Shown: positions 3,872-13,466 of the stretch, piece by piece | Layout: each line of letters begins with the position of its first letter | How positions within the stretch are numbered: the stretch's first letter is position 1 | NCBI GenBank assembly: GCA_021781625.1 | Contig: JAJXWL010000007.1 | Coordinates: 1-27,343 of the forward strand | DNA: 27,343 nucleotides | From: a bacterium | Lineage (GTDB): Bacteria > Spirochaetota > Spirochaetia > JABEVK01 | Direction: 5' to 3' | Made by a program: the position numbers and the translations under genes | Notes under the pieces: model-generated | Databases searched by the model: none | What the model was told of the DNA's origin: nothing | What the model saw: the letters and a program-made list of their open reading frames with translations, nothing else

Positions 3872-4837
3872 ATGTTGCCGATGCCTCGGCTTGACGAGTT
3901 TGTGGAACGCCTGAAGTTTTTACAACAACAACGACGACGATGGGCTCAGGTCAATCAAATTTCTTGTTACCGCCTCTTTGAAGAAGATGTTTTCCCTGTG
4001 GTTATCGACGTCTACGAAAAAGATATGGTTTGTTATGTCTTGGAAGAGCCGGAACAAGAACAAGACCTCGTTCAAGTGGTACAAGCCCTTCAAGAGGCTC
4101 TCGGTTGGCCTGGCGATAGAATTCACGTAAAGCGGCGACATCGCCAAAAAGAAGGGGCCCGTTACGATCGTCTTGATCAAACCGATCAGCTCGTTACGGT
4201 ACGAGAAGGCGGTTTGAAATTTTTAGTTAACCTTTATGACTACTTGGACACGGGTTTGTTTTTGGATCATCGGTGGACAAGGTCGTATGTTCGTGGGTTG
4301 TCCGCCGGTCGCCGCGTTTTGAATCTCTTTGCTTATACAGGAAGTTTTACGGTTTACGCGGCCCAAGGGGGAGCCTTTGAGACCGCCACCGTGGACCTGA
4401 ATGCCAATTATGGGGAGTGGGCAAAAAAAAATCTTGCGTTAAATGCTCTTGAGGGGCCGAATCACCGTTTTTACCGACGAGATGTTTTTGAATTTTTAAA
4501 ATCTGAAACACGAAAGCAATGGGATTTGATCATTCTAGACCCCCCTACCTTTTCACAGTCGAAAAAGATGGAAGGAACGTTGGATGTGCAAAGAGATTAT
4601 CCTGCACTCATCCAGGGGTGTTTAAAGATATTGTCTCCCGATGGAGTTCTCTTTTTTAGCAACAATTATCAGAAGTTTAAGTTTGATGAGAGGCTGTTTC
4701 CCAAGGTTCGCTGTCAAGAGATAACCTCTTTGACCGTTCCCAGAGATTTTCACAAGGGCATTCACCGGTGTTGGCTGTTGAACCGAGAGACGGCGCCGGC
4801 TTTAACCTTGCCGGTGCTTGATAAGGGGGCGGGATGA
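3872..4837 (+). CDS. RlmK-type SAM-dependent 23S rRNA methyltransferase
   Basis: A 321-residue class I methyltransferase. It resembles the C-terminal RlmK half of E. coli RlmKL, which makes m7G2069 in 23S rRNA. The N-terminal part has CYRLFEEDVFPVVIDVYE. NLYDYLDTGLFLDHR (120-134) leads into SAM motif I NLFAYTGSFTVYAA (151-164). An acidic ribose-binding D175 follows, then DPPTF (223-227) and VQRDYPALI. No RlmL or THUMP half is present, so it would be a stand-alone enzyme. RlmI (m5C1962) is the closest alternative and shares this architecture. ATG follows GGAGAGG. Its end overlaps mcsA by 4 bases (ATGA). Confidence 0.82.
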   Translation: MLPMPRLDEFVERLKFLQQQRRRWAQVNQISCYRLFEEDVFPVVIDVYEKDMVCYVLEEPEQEQDLVQVVQALQEALGWPGDRIHVKRRHRQKEGARYDRLDQTDQLVTVREGGLKFLVNLYDYLDTGLFLDHRWTRSYVRGLSAGRRVLNLFAYTGSFTVYAAQGGAFETATVDLNANYGEWAKKNLALNALEGPNHRFYRRDVFEFLKSETRKQWDLIILDPPTFSQSKKMEGTLDVQRDYPALIQGCLKILSPDGVLFFSNNYQKFKFDERLFPKVRCQEITSLTVPRDFHKGIHRCWLLNRETAPALTLPVLDKGAG

Positions 4838-5268
4838 CAGGAGCCTGCCGCCGGTGTGGAAAGCTCGAAGTCTTGACCAAACTGGAGGTCATTCGCGACG
4901 GTGAAAAGCAAGAGTGGGAGGTTTGCCGCTCGTGCTTGACGATTCTCTTAGGGGAGAACCCGCCCGAAGAAAAGAAAATCTGCCCTCAGTGTGGCTTTTC
5001 CTGGGACGAAGTCCAACATTCCCGTCGGTTAGGCTGTCCTGACTGCTACGTTACCTTTGCCTCATGGTTAGAGGAACGTTCTCGTCGCCGCGGCTGGCCT
5101 GCGTATCAGGTTGAAAGACCGGTATGGACAGTGAAGGCCTCACCGTTAGCTCGTCAAGAACGCCTGGCTCAGTTACAAACGGAGTTGAGGTCTGCGGTTG
5201 AAGGAGAGCTATTCGAGAAAGCCGCTCAACTCCGAGATGAGATTCGTGCCCTCCAGGAGTTGCTGTGA
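4834..5268 (+). CDS. mcsA: McsA-like zinc protein with UVR motif
   Basis: McsA is the zinc-binding activator and adaptor of the protein-arginine kinase McsB and sits beside ClpC in stress operons. This 144-residue product has four CxxC pairs (C5/C8, C31/C34, C50/C53, C68/C71), the expected double zinc module. It ends with a UVR motif (about 108-143; LQTELRSAVEGELFEKAAQLRDEI, the fold shared with UvrB/UvrC and ClpC). All cysteines are intact, in contrast with the degenerate McsB that follows. It overlaps the previous gene (ATGA) and the next (GTGA). Confidence 0.88.
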   Translation: MTGACRRCGKLEVLTKLEVIRDGEKQEWEVCRSCLTILLGENPPEEKKICPQCGFSWDEVQHSRRLGCPDCYVTFASWLEERSRRRGWPAYQVERPVWTVKASPLARQERLAQLQTELRSAVEGELFEKAAQLRDEIRALQELL

Positions 5269-6299
5269 CCGTAAGCCTTGACCCCGAACAAAGTTGGTAT
5301 TCCTCACCTCGCGAACCCCATCCTTGTGTTCTTGCCCTTCGATGGACGGCTTTTCGTAATGTCGAAGGCTGGCCCTTTTCGTTCAGATGTCGTCCCGAGC
5401 AAAAGCACGTGTTGAAACAGCGGTTGACCGAGGTTGTTCAAACGGATGAAACTCTCAGTGCTCCCTTTATTTGGAAAGAGGCTCCTCCCTTAACCAAAGC
5501 CTTAGCCCAAGAACGACTTTTGGTCCCCGAGGGCCTAGTTCAAGATAGGGAGGCTGTTTCTTGGTGGTCGCCTCGTGACGTTTGGGGCCTTCATTGGGGT
5601 GGTGAAGACCATCTTAGGTTTCGTCAGCTGAGCCTTGGTTTTCAGCCACAAGAAATCGAAAGATTTTTATCGAGCCTTGAAAGCTGGGGGCAACGCTTGG
5701 GTTTTGCCTGGCGTCCCGGGTGGGGGTGGGTCACGGCTGACCCCTCCCATGCAGGTAGTGCTCTTCAGGTATCAGCTCTCTTGCATCTGCCCGCCTCTGA
5801 AGCTTCGGGCTTGTGGGAAGCAATGATGAAAACTGTTGAACGTCAGGGGTTTTCGCTTCTTCCCGTCTGGGCAGGCAGCCGGGGAGAATCGGATTTTTTC
5901 TGGCTACAAAGTGCCTTTTCTCATGGACGAAGCGAGCAAGAGTTGCACTCGGTGCTGTTGTCCCTTGTCGAAAAGATTACCAAGGGCGAGATTGAGGCTC
6001 GTCAACGCGAAGCCAAACTCAAGACGCTCGATTTAGAGGATCGCGTGGGAAGGGCCTGGGGGTTGCTCTCCTATGCCCGAAGGTTGTCTTGGGAAGAGAC
6101 ACTGCCCGCTTTGTCGGCTTTGCGAAGAGCAACAGAATTGATTATAATAAAAGAGAGCGTTAGTGATCGTCTTGATTCCTTATTTTTTCGGTTGCAGGGG
6201 GCACATTTACGGGCTCTTTTAGCTACCCAAGAAGGTGAGGATGTTTTGCGATCGGACGTGCTTCGGACTATTCTGCTGGGGGGCAAGAAGAATGTTTAA
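5265..6299 (+). CDS. McsB-family guanido-phosphotransferase homologue, probably inactive
   Basis: A 344-residue protein aligning along its length with McsB, which phosphorylates protein arginines and marks them for ClpCP. Family landmarks remain: GGEDHLRFR (E114), LSLGFQ, SALLHLP, HGRSEQEL and LEDRVGRAWGLLSYAR. Key residues are changed by my alignment to remembered McsB. The SSRIRLARN nucleotide motif reads ALRWTAFRN (24-32). The catalytic cysteine of SCPTN is D159 (TADPSH). The arginine of GTGLRAS is Q168. The VVRGIYGEGSEA segment is replaced by LLPVWAGSRGES, losing its arginine. The RDxxRRA phosphoarginine pocket is only partly kept near 330. It starts at GTG overlapping mcsA and overlaps clpC by 8 bases. 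It may be a pseudokinase or an adaptor. Confidence 0.8.
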   Translation: MTVSLDPEQSWYSSPREPHPCVLALRWTAFRNVEGWPFSFRCRPEQKHVLKQRLTEVVQTDETLSAPFIWKEAPPLTKALAQERLLVPEGLVQDREAVSWWSPRDVWGLHWGGEDHLRFRQLSLGFQPQEIERFLSSLESWGQRLGFAWRPGWGWVTADPSHAGSALQVSALLHLPASEASGLWEAMMKTVERQGFSLLPVWAGSRGESDFFWLQSAFSHGRSEQELHSVLLSLVEKITKGEIEARQREAKLKTLDLEDRVGRAWGLLSYARRLSWEETLPALSALRRATELIIIKESVSDRLDSLFFRLQGAHLRALLATQEGEDVLRSDVLRTILLGGKKNV

Positions 6300-8799
6300 A
6301 GGTTTAACACAACGAGCTCAGCGCATCCTGACCGTTTTATCGCAAGAAGAAGCTCGGCGTTTTCATTCCGATCAGCTCCTCCCCGAACATGTCATTTTGG
6401 CACTTCTTAAAGATGGAGAAGGCATTGGGTATAAGGCACTCAAATCCATGAATGTTGACCTTAGTGCCCTTCAGCTCGAAATTGAAAAAGCGATTCCTAG
6501 AAAACCGTCAGGCTTTGTGTTGGGGGATGTGCCCCCCTCTAAGCGAGGTAAGCGCATTTTAGAAGAAAGTGCCAATGAAGCCCGAGCCTTAGGTCACGAA
6601 TACATTGGAACTGAACATCTTCTGCTGGCGGCAGTTGCCGAAACGGGCAGTGTAGTTTCACTTTACCTGCAAAATAATAGCATTACGATTGACACCCTTC
6701 GTGAAGTCATTAGCGATTTGTCTGGCGGCTCCCCGGTTCGTACCCGAGAACCTCGGCAACTTCCGGCCGTCGAAGATCAGCGCTGGAAAAGGCCTACTCC
6801 TGGTATGCCGAACAAAAAAACGACCCCGACCCTTGATGAGTTTTCACGTGATCTAACAGCTCTCGCCCAAAAAAAAGCCTTGGATCCGGTCGTAGGCCGC
6901 GAAAAAGAAATGGCCCGTGTCATTCAAATTCTTGCCCGTCGTACCAAGAATAATCCGGTTCTTATTGGTGAACCTGGGGTAGGAAAAACCGCGATTGTCG
7001 AAGCTTTGGCGCAAGCCATCATTGCCGATGCTGTACCGGCATCGTTGTCGGGAAAGCGTCTTATGACCTTGGATCTGGCCGCCTTGATCGCGGGCACCAA
7101 GTACCGAGGCGAGTTTGAAGAACGCCTCAAAAGGGTGATGAAAGAAATCACGGCCGTGGGAAATGTCATCCTCTTTATTGATGAATTGCATACGATTATT
7201 GGCGCCGGAGGTGCAGAGGGGGCGATCGATGCCAGCAACATGCTCAAGCCGGCCCTATCTCGTGGTGAAATTCAGTGTATTGGGGCGACGACGTTAGCAG
7301 AATACCGTAAGCATATTGAAAAAGACGCCGCCTTAGAACGGCGCTTTCAACCGGTCATTGTAGGGGAGCCTTCGGTCGAACAGGCTGTCGAGATCCTTCA
7401 AGGAATAGCTGACAAGTACGCCCAATTTCACAACGTGGTCTACACTCCCGAAGCGATCGAAGCGGCTGCTTCGTTATCGCATCGGTATATCTCGGATCGT
7501 AGCCTTCCCGATAAGGCCATCGACTTGATGGATGAGGCTGGGTCTCAGAAGAAAATTGAAAATAATTATCGACCTGTTGAAGTCTCTCAGCTAGAGCAAC
7601 AGGTAGAAGCTTTGGTCAAAGAAAAGAACGAGTTGGTGAGCAACCAAAACTACGAACGAGCCGCAGCCATTCGCGACGAGGTAAGGCGTCTTAAGCAAGA
7701 AGTCGAAGAAGCTCGTCAACGGTGGGAAACTCACTCAGAGGCTCAGCCCCGTACGGTAACCGTTGAAGATATTCAAAATATTCTCGCCGACGTTACTGGG
7801 ATTCCTTTGAACAGGATAGCCCAAACCGAAGCAGAAAAACTCTTACAGGTCGAAGCGGTTTTGCACCAGTCGGTCGTGGGGCAAGAAGAAGCGATCTCGG
7901 CGATTGCCTCAGCGATCCGCAGGGCGCGGACGGGTTTGAACTCTCCTCGTCGACCGTTAGGCTCGTTTATCTTTTTAGGGCCCACCGGCGTGGGAAAATC
8001 GTTGTTAGCCAAGACGTTGGCGGACTTTCTTTTTGGCAGTACCGAAAACCTCATTCGTCTGGACATGTCTGATTTTATGGAAAAGCATAACGTCAGTAGG
8101 TTGGTGGGGGCGCCACCCGGTTATGTAGGCTACGAAGAAGGCGGACTTTTGACCGAAAAAATTCGTCGCAAGCCCTACAGCGTCGTTTTGCTGGACGAAA
8201 TTGAAAAAGCCCATCCTGACGTTTTTAACCTGCTGTTGCAGATTCTCGAAGAGGGTGAATTACAGGATAACCTCGGCCATACCGTTTCGTTTCGAAACAC
8301 CATCTTAATTATGACTTCGAATGCGGGGGCCCGACAAATAACCAAAGCCGGTGGTATGGGCTTTCAGACGCAAGAAGGACTTTTGAACTATCAAGAAATC
8401 AAATCCTCGGCGATGAATGAACTGAAGCGTCTTTTTAGACCGGAGTTCATCAACCGTGTTGATGAAATTGTTGTTTTCCATGCCCTGACGACGAAAGAAG
8501 TTGAAGTCATTTTTGATCTTTTGCTAGGCGAAGTTCGAGAACGCCTCTTACAGCGCAATCTACATTTAGAAATGACGCCCAAAGCAAAAGCGTGGTTGAT
8601 TCAAAAAGGCTACGACCCGTTGTATGGGGCCCGGCCTCTTCGCCGAGTGCTTCAGCGCGAGTTAGAAGATGTGCTCTCTACCGAGATTTTAAAGGGTCAT
8701 TTAGACGCAGGTGACCGCATTGTCGTCGAGTTACGCCGTGAAAAGCTGGCCTTAAAAATTCGAAAACCGTCTCAACCGGAACCGGCACCGGCACGATGA
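6292..8799 (+). CDS. clpC: ATP-dependent Clp protease ATPase subunit ClpC
   Basis: An 835-residue AAA+ unfoldase that feeds substrates to ClpP. It has a double Clp-N domain (1-145). D1 carries Walker A GEPGVGKT (226-233) and Walker B ILFIDE. A short M domain with a UVR-like helix follows (about 432-472), which separates ClpC from ClpA and ClpB. D2 carries Walker A GPTGVGKS (563-570) and Walker B VVLLDE. The ClpP-docking tripeptide appears as MGF (689-691). The ATG at 6292 gives the family N-terminus MFKGLTQRAQ. Earlier in-frame codons would add 19 unrelated residues. It lies directly downstream of mcsA and the mcsB homologue, as in clpC stress operons. Confidence 0.96.
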   Translation: MFKGLTQRAQRILTVLSQEEARRFHSDQLLPEHVILALLKDGEGIGYKALKSMNVDLSALQLEIEKAIPRKPSGFVLGDVPPSKRGKRILEESANEARALGHEYIGTEHLLLAAVAETGSVVSLYLQNNSITIDTLREVISDLSGGSPVRTREPRQLPAVEDQRWKRPTPGMPNKKTTPTLDEFSRDLTALAQKKALDPVVGREKEMARVIQILARRTKNNPVLIGEPGVGKTAIVEALAQAIIADAVPASLSGKRLMTLDLAALIAGTKYRGEFEERLKRVMKEITAVGNVILFIDELHTIIGAGGAEGAIDASNMLKPALSRGEIQCIGATTLAEYRKHIEKDAALERRFQPVIVGEPSVEQAVEILQGIADKYAQFHNVVYTPEAIEAAASLSHRYISDRSLPDKAIDLMDEAGSQKKIENNYRPVEVSQLEQQVEALVKEKNELVSNQNYERAAAIRDEVRRLKQEVEEARQRWETHSEAQPRTVTVEDIQNILADVTGIPLNRIAQTEAEKLLQVEAVLHQSVVGQEEAISAIASAIRRARTGLNSPRRPLGSFIFLGPTGVGKSLLAKTLADFLFGSTENLIRLDMSDFMEKHNVSRLVGAPPGYVGYEEGGLLTEKIRRKPYSVVLLDEIEKAHPDVFNLLLQILEEGELQDNLGHTVSFRNTILIMTSNAGARQITKAGGMGFQTQEGLLNYQEIKSSAMNELKRLFRPEFINRVDEIVVFHALTTKEVEVIFDLLLGEVRERLLQRNLHLEMTPKAKAWLIQKGYDPLYGARPLRRVLQRELEDVLSTEILKGHLDAGDRIVVELRREKLALKIRKPSQPEPAPAR

Positions 8800-12836: not shown

Positions 12837-13466
12837 ATGAGAGCAGGTTGGTTGTTGCTTTTCCTGCTTATGGCGGCGCTGGCAGGCGCAGAGTCCCTTT
12901 GGGCCCCCGGGTCCAAAGGTTATTACTCAGGGGTGCAGACTTTGCATCAGGGAGACTTTCTTCACGTTATTCTGACGGGAGAAGCCTCCCTTTCTTTTAA
13001 AGCGGCTCGTACGTCTAATCAGGCGGTCTCGCTGGATTTTGGTAGTGCTGCAGGGTTGAACTTACCCCCCGGAACCACCTCGGGCGGCGAAAAGCTTGCT
13101 TTGGATTCGCAGTGGAAGGTAAAGAACTTTTCATTAACCGTTCGTGTTGTCTCTGTTGACCCCTCCGGAGTGGCACAGATTGAGGGCAGTAGGACGCTTC
13201 AGGTGTCAGGTGGTTTGGACACCTTAACTTTGACAGGAACGGTTGATCCCCGCTCGGTTGAGGGGCAAACGGTGGCCTGGCAAAACGTTGCCGACCTTAA
13301 CCTTGTCTATACTAGTGCCGCCGCTGGGACCAAACCGGTGGTTACAGCACAAGATTATGGTCCCGACCACCAGCTCACCAAAGAAAAACAGGAACAGCTA
13401 AAACGAGAATACCTCAACCGTTTTTTAAGCGGATTTTTTTCTGAGGGAACCAAAAAAGCTCCTTGA
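12837..13466 (+). CDS. FlgH-like flagellar L-ring protein
   Basis: A 209-residue exported protein. The signal peptide runs over residues 1-18 (WLLLFLLMAALAGA) and has no lipobox cysteine, unlike classical FlgH lipoproteins. The mature part follows FlgH order. It begins SLWAPGSKGYYSG, then QGDFLHVILTGEASLSFKA corresponds to the GDxLxVxIxExxSAS block. SLTVRVVSVDPSGVAQIEG corresponds to VxxVLPNGNLxIxG, and LTLTGTVDPRSVEGQTVAW and VADLNLVYTS to GVVxPxxIxxxNTV and VADAxIxY. The C-terminus is a charged helix ending KKAP. No other flagellar gene is nearby. It shares a promoter with the mini ribosomal protein. Confidence 0.72.
   Translation: MRAGWLLLFLLMAALAGAESLWAPGSKGYYSGVQTLHQGDFLHVILTGEASLSFKAARTSNQAVSLDFGSAAGLNLPPGTTSGGEKLALDSQWKVKNFSLTVRVVSVDPSGVAQIEGSRTLQVSGGLDTLTLTGTVDPRSVEGQTVAWQNVADLNLVYTSAAAGTKPVVTAQDYGPDHQLTKEKQEQLKREYLNRFLSGFFSEGTKKAP

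Follow-up and report, generated by a model that had tools for sequence, protein, structure and literature searches.

A McsB homologue with a degenerate active site between mcsA and clpC in a spirochaete, and its counterparts across Spirochaetota

Introduction

McsB is the protein expected to mark damaged proteins for breakdown. CtsR is its classical target, and in B. subtilis the adaptor and kinase functions of McsB are hard to dissect. MecA, which belongs to a protein family different from McsB, is a ClpC adaptor that is no kinase. For the residues of McsB we follow the B. subtilis protein, in which we take R29, R31, R125, R176 and R207 to be the arginines binding the ATP phosphates, E121 to be the catalytic Glu base and C167 the catalytic Cys. 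For phosphagen kinases, PMC12467219 (excerpt) describes both the Cys and the cluster of arginines; in the same excerpt, the C-terminal zinc finger of S. aureus McsA docks on the loop just before the catalytic Cys.

Compared with the McsB kinases of B. subtilis, G. stearothermophilus and S. aureus, the McsB homologue encoded in the window (the whole stretch of 27,343 nucleotides analysed here) lacks the catalytic Cys and three of the five arginines, and scores far below the equivalog cut-offs. In the McsA-McsB complexes 8gqd, 8wtb and 8wtc, McsA orients the catalytic Cys (PMC12467219, excerpt), whereas here there is no Cys to orient. The likeness to MecA that we propose is one of mode alone: binding to the pockets of the ClpC N-domain with no phospho-arginine involved. 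According to an excerpt of PMC12583610, these phospho-arginine pockets also serve the resting state of ClpC, and MecA binds them. With the bacterial Ser/Thr pseudokinases (PMC12599244, excerpt) the protein has in common that a kinase fold persists although catalytic residues are gone, but those belong to an unrelated kinase superfamily, and both mentions of McsB found in that paper stand in its reference list.

Among the matches listed in the open-access literature, subscription papers not being covered, we found no account of an inactive McsB or of McsB in spirochaetes; the open-access paper naming both McsB and "spirochaet" does so in unrelated places of its text. The main value of the locus is that of a natural case that may separate McsB the adaptor from McsB the kinase.

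Results

The locus

The original prediction placed in this window an in-frame McsB homologue overlapping both of its neighbours, and this is borne out: the open reading frame shares 4 nt with mcsA upstream and 8 nt with clpC, which starts with the ATG at 6292, and the encoded McsB homologue belongs to the ATP:guanido phosphotransferase superfamily (PF00217, 38.7 bits; gathering cut-off 22.4). The gene string reads as follows.

3872..4837, + strand: RlmI-like methyltransferase gene (PF10672, 89.1 bits), overlapping mcsA by 4 nt
4834..5268, + strand: mcsA-like gene, 144 aa, with a C-terminal UVR motif (PF02151, 28.7 bits) and CxxC pairs resembling the McsA zinc fingers
5265..6299, + strand: putative pseudo-mcsB, full-length, 344 aa, GTG start, degenerate active site
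6292..8799, + strand: clpC, AAA+ unfoldase with Clp_N repeats, two AAA domains and a UVR motif in its middle part

The McsA-like protein contains CRRC..CRSC and CPQC..CPDC, and scores 64.3 bits with the McsA model NF053706, below its equivalog cut-off of 210. The McsB homologue reaches 119.7 bits with NF002194, far below the equivalog cut-off of 385, and 100.7 against 500 with a second NCBIfam equivalog model; three more models also stay below their cut-offs. Its best-matching solved sequences are all McsB, and it combines the guanido-kinase catalytic domain with a helical dimerisation domain of the McsB type.

The order mcsA-mcsB-clpC, typical of McsB, is thus present in the window. With the methyltransferase gene in front, it is common to L001, and L002 adds one gene before the methyltransferase; both are "Spirochaetales bacterium" MAGs and the closest named relatives of the window. 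Further out, the window encodes a PilZN3-PilZ protein (1880-2755) upstream of a TPR gene; L001 and L002 have a homologue of the PilZ protein at the corresponding position. The window also encodes a homologue of the flagellar L-ring protein FlgH (12837-13466; PF02107, 57.2 bits), this in a Spirochaetales-type genome.

The active site

Residues of the window protein were numbered by alignment to PDB McsB chains and to B. subtilis McsB, as in the following features.

5340..5348, + strand: R26-W27-T28; R26 corresponds to R29 and is kept, T28 replaces R31 (ALRWT for SSRIR)
5598..5618, + strand: GGEDHLR (NEEDH motif); E114 corresponds to E121 and R118 to R125, both kept, with Gly for N119 and E120
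5739..5741, + strand: D159, at the position of the catalytic Cys C167
5766..5768, + strand: Q168, replacing R176 (the GTGLRAS arginine)
5859..5861, + strand: L199, replacing R207 (the VVRGIYG arginine)

All residue claims made at first from the translation (Asp for the catalytic Cys, Gln for the GTGLRAS arginine, a rewritten SSRIR and the missing VVRGIYG arginine) agree with the alignment. Three of the seven key McsB residues remain (R26, E114, R118), among them two of the five phosphate-binding arginines, and the protein has only two Cys residues, C21 and C42, both close to its N-terminus. An arginine kinase mutated at its Cys can reportedly retain partial activity, going by the title of a 2004 study by Gattis that PMC12467219 cites. 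Altogether, the site strongly indicates that kinase chemistry has been lost: the protein appears catalytically dead, as first proposed, with catalytic and phosphate-binding residues missing, a state similar to that of 185 of the 218 McsBs surveyed below.

The closest relatives bear on what the remaining residues may still do. The window protein is 94% identical to P0001, 93% to L001, 82% to P0002 and 53% to both L002 and P0003. All six sequences have Asp at the C167 position; being common to L001, L002 and P0001-P0003, the substitution in the window is no chance event. Glu or Asp stands there in L117 and L118, from the same GTDB family as the window. This constancy, together with E114, R118 and R26 still in place, would suit an altered or weak phosphotransferase that still binds its nucleotide and catalyses a reaction that is slow or altered, D159 taking the role of the Cys. 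Against it, E114 is present in the window, L001, P0001 and P0002 but is Ala in P0003 and Ser in L002, and R26 is Lys in both of these 53%-identical relatives. L002 keeps one of the seven sites, R125, and three of the five arginine positions are neither Arg nor Lys in both the window protein and L002. The residues remaining in the window are therefore partly unmaintained inside its own clade.

Selection and fold

The window mcsB is under purifying selection. Compared with L001 by the NG86 method, it has a dN/dS of 0.078 (dN 0.032, dS 0.41) and no internal stops; values for its neighbours are 0.090 for mcsA, 0.054 for the methyltransferase gene, 0.054 for the TPR gene, 0.084 for the PilZ gene and 0.015 for clpC. 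In the comparison with L002, dS is saturated. Structure prediction gives, at high confidence, a McsB fold intact over both domains, the second of which appears in the model as one more feature.

6024..6275, + strand: equivalent of the helical dimerisation domain, residues about 254-337, by the secondary structure of the model; R329 corresponds to the Arg of what we take to be the RDxxRA motif

A conserved non-kinase role, as the original prediction had it, gains computational support from this predicted fold, from the dN/dS against L001 and from the 185 of 218 homologues that are similarly degenerate.

To see what is conserved, we took the 113 degenerate McsBs left after removing sequences more than 62% identical. 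Kept among them are R34 (97%), N35 (91%), F41 (95%), H123 (98%), G132 (95%), G162 (100%), G172 (99%), E251 (98%) and the RDxxRA arginine, R329 in the window (112 of 113, 99%); poorly kept are E120 (15%), E121 (19%), C167 (0%) and N170 (19%).

These data leave a decaying gene, retained merely through its translational overlap with clpC, very improbable. The overlap with both neighbours would fit such a relic, but the dN/dS of 0.078 and the full-length frame in L002 and in 218 loci rule it out; moreover, the conserved residues are distributed through the protein, and 36 degenerate loci without an adjacent clpC still have mcsB. We also consider it improbable that the protein, its kinase lost, reads phospho-arginine through the C-terminal receptor site. 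The near-invariant RDxxRA arginine would favour such a reader. In B. subtilis McsB, R337 and D338 were the residues mutated to disable the phospho-arginine receptor site (PMC8370763, excerpt); Asp occupies the 338 column in 31 of the 113 sequences, and the 337 column is variable, in a region where the alignment is gappy. Also against a reader, a second guanido kinase was not seen in 239 of the 241 genomes matching PF00217, the control for that search being weak.

Survey across Spirochaetota

We searched 392 Spirochaetota genomes, drawn evenly from a larger group, with the PF00217 profile. It matched 241 of them, once each in 239 and twice in G137 and G200. The profile matched none of 14 control genomes although B. 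subtilis, a species that carries mcsB and ctsR, was among them; the 151 match-less genomes and the missing second kinase are thus not firm absences.

The loci surveyed number 243, one for each of the 241 genomes plus G002 and the window. L226, a wrongly placed region, and the duplicates L003, L004, L035, L036, L239-L241 and L243 were left out before counting. A McsB counted as full-length above 150 bits with a profile built here, leaving 24 of 242 loci at or below 150 bits uncounted; L114 has no frame matching this profile. Full-length McsBs were found in 218 of the 242 loci, 217 from Spirochaetota genomes and one in the window.

C167 is kept in 29 of the 218. The remainder lack it: four of them keep at least five of the seven sites, 185 no more than four. 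In these 185 degenerate McsBs, position 167 is Ser in 70, Asp in 32, Asn in 23, Arg in 10 and Glu in 9, among others, and position 121 is Asn in 30, Glu in 29, Asp in 23 and Lys in 15, among others. Three are gapped at scored sites, so that counts of residue sets use the other 182: position 121 is neither Glu nor Asp in 130, and at least three of the five arginine positions lack Arg or Lys in 84, the window missing three. Arg or Lys stands at all five positions in 13 of the 182, and one position is missing in 65, so that activity may persist in part of the set. C167-keeping McsBs without ambiguous letters have all five positions as Arg or Lys in 26 of 28, and two miss one.

A profile search starting from 22 degenerate McsBs gave 648 proteins. 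Among the best 120 of these, the organism-named ones are Treponema, T. pectinovorum included; none has Cys at position 167, and between 0 and 4 of the seven sites are kept. They are labelled "hypothetical protein" (NCBI) and sometimes "protein arginine kinase" (JGI), a label that may misstate the activity of some Cys-less McsBs. With a Cys-keeping query, 95 of 120 kept C167 among the matches listed, the organism-named ones being mostly uncultured Spirochaetota.

An altered phosphotransferase could find some comfort in the best 120 of the 648 proteins, of Treponema type, where R29 is found in 115, R31 in 114, R125 in 97 and Lys at position 176 in 112. However, positions 167 and 121 vary across the 185 members, 84 of 182 lack Arg or Lys at three or more positions, and the group as a whole shares no set of replacement residues. 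This part of the original prediction is disfavoured, and we rate it as rather unlikely.

Trees and repeated loss of C167

Trees were built without the scored columns, with FastTree for 226 rows and as an IQ-TREE quick tree for 83 chosen rows. At least eight changes at C167 are needed in each; with weak nodes (7 to 60) and groups shifting between the trees, eight is an estimate. The FastTree root was set by six outgroup rows from outside the survey, five with Cys and one, P0012, without; since five of the six have it, the changes at C167 are read as losses.

The window lies inside a large Cys-less clade, of 139 rows in the FastTree tree (support 92) and 57 rows in the IQ-TREE tree (support 44). 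L005 and L013, which keep seven of seven sites, are the nearest neighbours of the window in the IQ-TREE tree and branch earlier in the FastTree tree. Small Cys-less groups are also nested in the Cys-keeping clade, for instance L152/L156 beside L010 (support 99 and 95), and the substitutions at the degenerate sites vary by lineage. We tentatively suggest, at somewhat less than even odds, that Spirochaetota repeatedly made McsB a pseudokinase and that their McsA/McsB/ClpC quality control runs without arginine phosphorylation. Phospho-arginine signalling should not be presumed in Treponema-type spirochaetes.

McsA, ClpC and the proposed mechanism

Of the 183 degenerate loci whose sequence extends far enough, 174 have McsA upstream, as do all 28 loci with C167. 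The 174 McsAs beside degenerate McsBs have at least four CxxC pairs in 152 cases, three in 3, two in 18 and none in 1. The gene starting directly downstream is clpC in 148 of 184 degenerate loci, leaving 36 with no clpC next to mcsB; all 28 loci with C167 have it there. A ClpC-like protein, at 45-58% identity to the window ClpC, is encoded in all 39 genomes where a narrower scan saw no adjacent clpC, though four of these proteins, at 45-47% identity, may be other Clp types.

In one protein, P0005, McsA and McsB are fused: residues 1-155 match the McsA profile and residues 179-502 the McsB profile, the latter part being without C167, E121, R29, R31 and R176. Its AF2 model has a pLDDT of 82.8 and a pTM of 0.76, which says nothing on the McsA-McsB interface. 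L082:1540-3057 resembles a second fusion by eye only, Pfam finding PF00217 alone, and the apparent fusion in L244 is ambiguous. The apparent long fusions in L076, L081, L090, L096, L216 and L223 looked by eye like stop-to-stop frames extending upstream and were not counted.

Our preferred reading, to which we give a probability of about 0.53, is that the protein is a pseudokinase kept as the structural partner of McsA, most likely acting on ClpC as an adaptor or regulator, independently of arginine phosphorylation. The adaptor role itself is inferred. In favour of the reading as a whole are the loss of the active site, the full fold, the dN/dS of 0.078, the similar state of 185 of 218 homologues, the residues still conserved among the 113 degenerate sequences, the McsA and clpC neighbourhood, the ClpC-like protein in 39 of 39 genomes, the P0005 fusion and, with the weak control noted above, the single PF00217 match in 239 of 241 genomes, which shows no backup kinase. 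Against it speak the 36 of 184 loci with a non-adjacent clpC, the kept ClpC pocket glutamates described below, the remaining E114 and R118, the 13 and 65 of 182 degenerate members with Arg or Lys at all five or all but one of the arginine positions, and the partial activity reported for Cys mutants of arginine kinase.

McsA would still bind the pseudo-McsB: its docking loop sits before the lost Cys, so that binding may survive the loss. The McsA/pseudo-McsB complex would then bind the N-terminal domain of ClpC directly, in the manner of MecA, and would recruit substrates or release ClpC from its resting state, with no need for a phospho-arginine mark. Such direct engagement is proposed because MecA binds the ClpC pockets and the pocket glutamates are kept. 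The adaptor linking McsA and ClpC imagined in the original prediction thus stands in part, favoured by the gene neighbourhood and by P0005; what speaks against a kinase-free adaptor is that the adaptor function of B. subtilis McsB is reported to require kinase activity (PMC5506225, excerpt).

In ClpC beside degenerate McsBs, the two pocket glutamates of the N-domain are kept in 137 of 139 and 138 of 139 cases. A loss of the phospho-arginine pockets together with the kinase is therefore not seen, which is neutral for the adaptor reading; there is no sign that ClpC is losing phospho-arginine sensing, though the sites also serve the resting state.

That double use would also suit a holding factor, a McsA/pseudo-McsB pair binding ClpC to restrain or store it and delivering no substrate. 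The gene string and the fold favour it just as they do the adaptor; besides, in an excerpt of PMC5506225, McsB associates strongly with ClpC in unstressed B. subtilis and ClpC inhibits the McsB kinase, an association that could have outlived catalysis. The pocket glutamates matter for the resting state as well (PMC12583610, excerpt). The computed data do not separate activation from inhibition; we judge holding unlikely, though the likeliest of the alternatives.

If Spirochaetota do run this quality control without arginine phosphorylation, adaptor and kinase would prove to be separable functions of McsB. The large natural set of Cys-less McsBs, mostly neighbours of McsA and ClpC, opens the question of adaptor or kinase to direct testing.

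As for other partners, CtsR was not found above cut-off in the 392 Spirochaetota genomes (PF05848 in none; PF17727 in one, at E 2e-4, below cut-off); the same search matched Lactococcus lactis alone among 14 controls and not B. subtilis, which makes this absence weak. A low-molecular-weight phosphatase (LMW-PTP) match occurs in 58 of 79 genomes (29 with C167 and 50 sampled from the 182 without). We take GNTCRS to be the P-loop form of the arginine phosphatase YwlE. The P-loop of 30 loci gave GNICRS or GNSCRS in 29 and GNTCRS in none, and is uninformative on YwlE.

Other guanido kinase types among the loci

The McsB of L133 keeps six of seven sites, with Ala for Cys as its sole change, and may be an intermediate in kinase loss. 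A canonical-looking type of guanido kinase occurs in L066, L071, L078, L086, L088, L092, L093, L097, L100, L101, L103, L104, L108 and L111: it has GDEDH, DDEDH, RDEDH or GEEDH, keeps the five arginines and, except in L071, the Cys, and matches the McsB profile built here over partial length only. A further PF00217 type, in L105, L113 and L115, carries FDEDH and CPTN motifs, with Lys at R176 and no Arg at R207.
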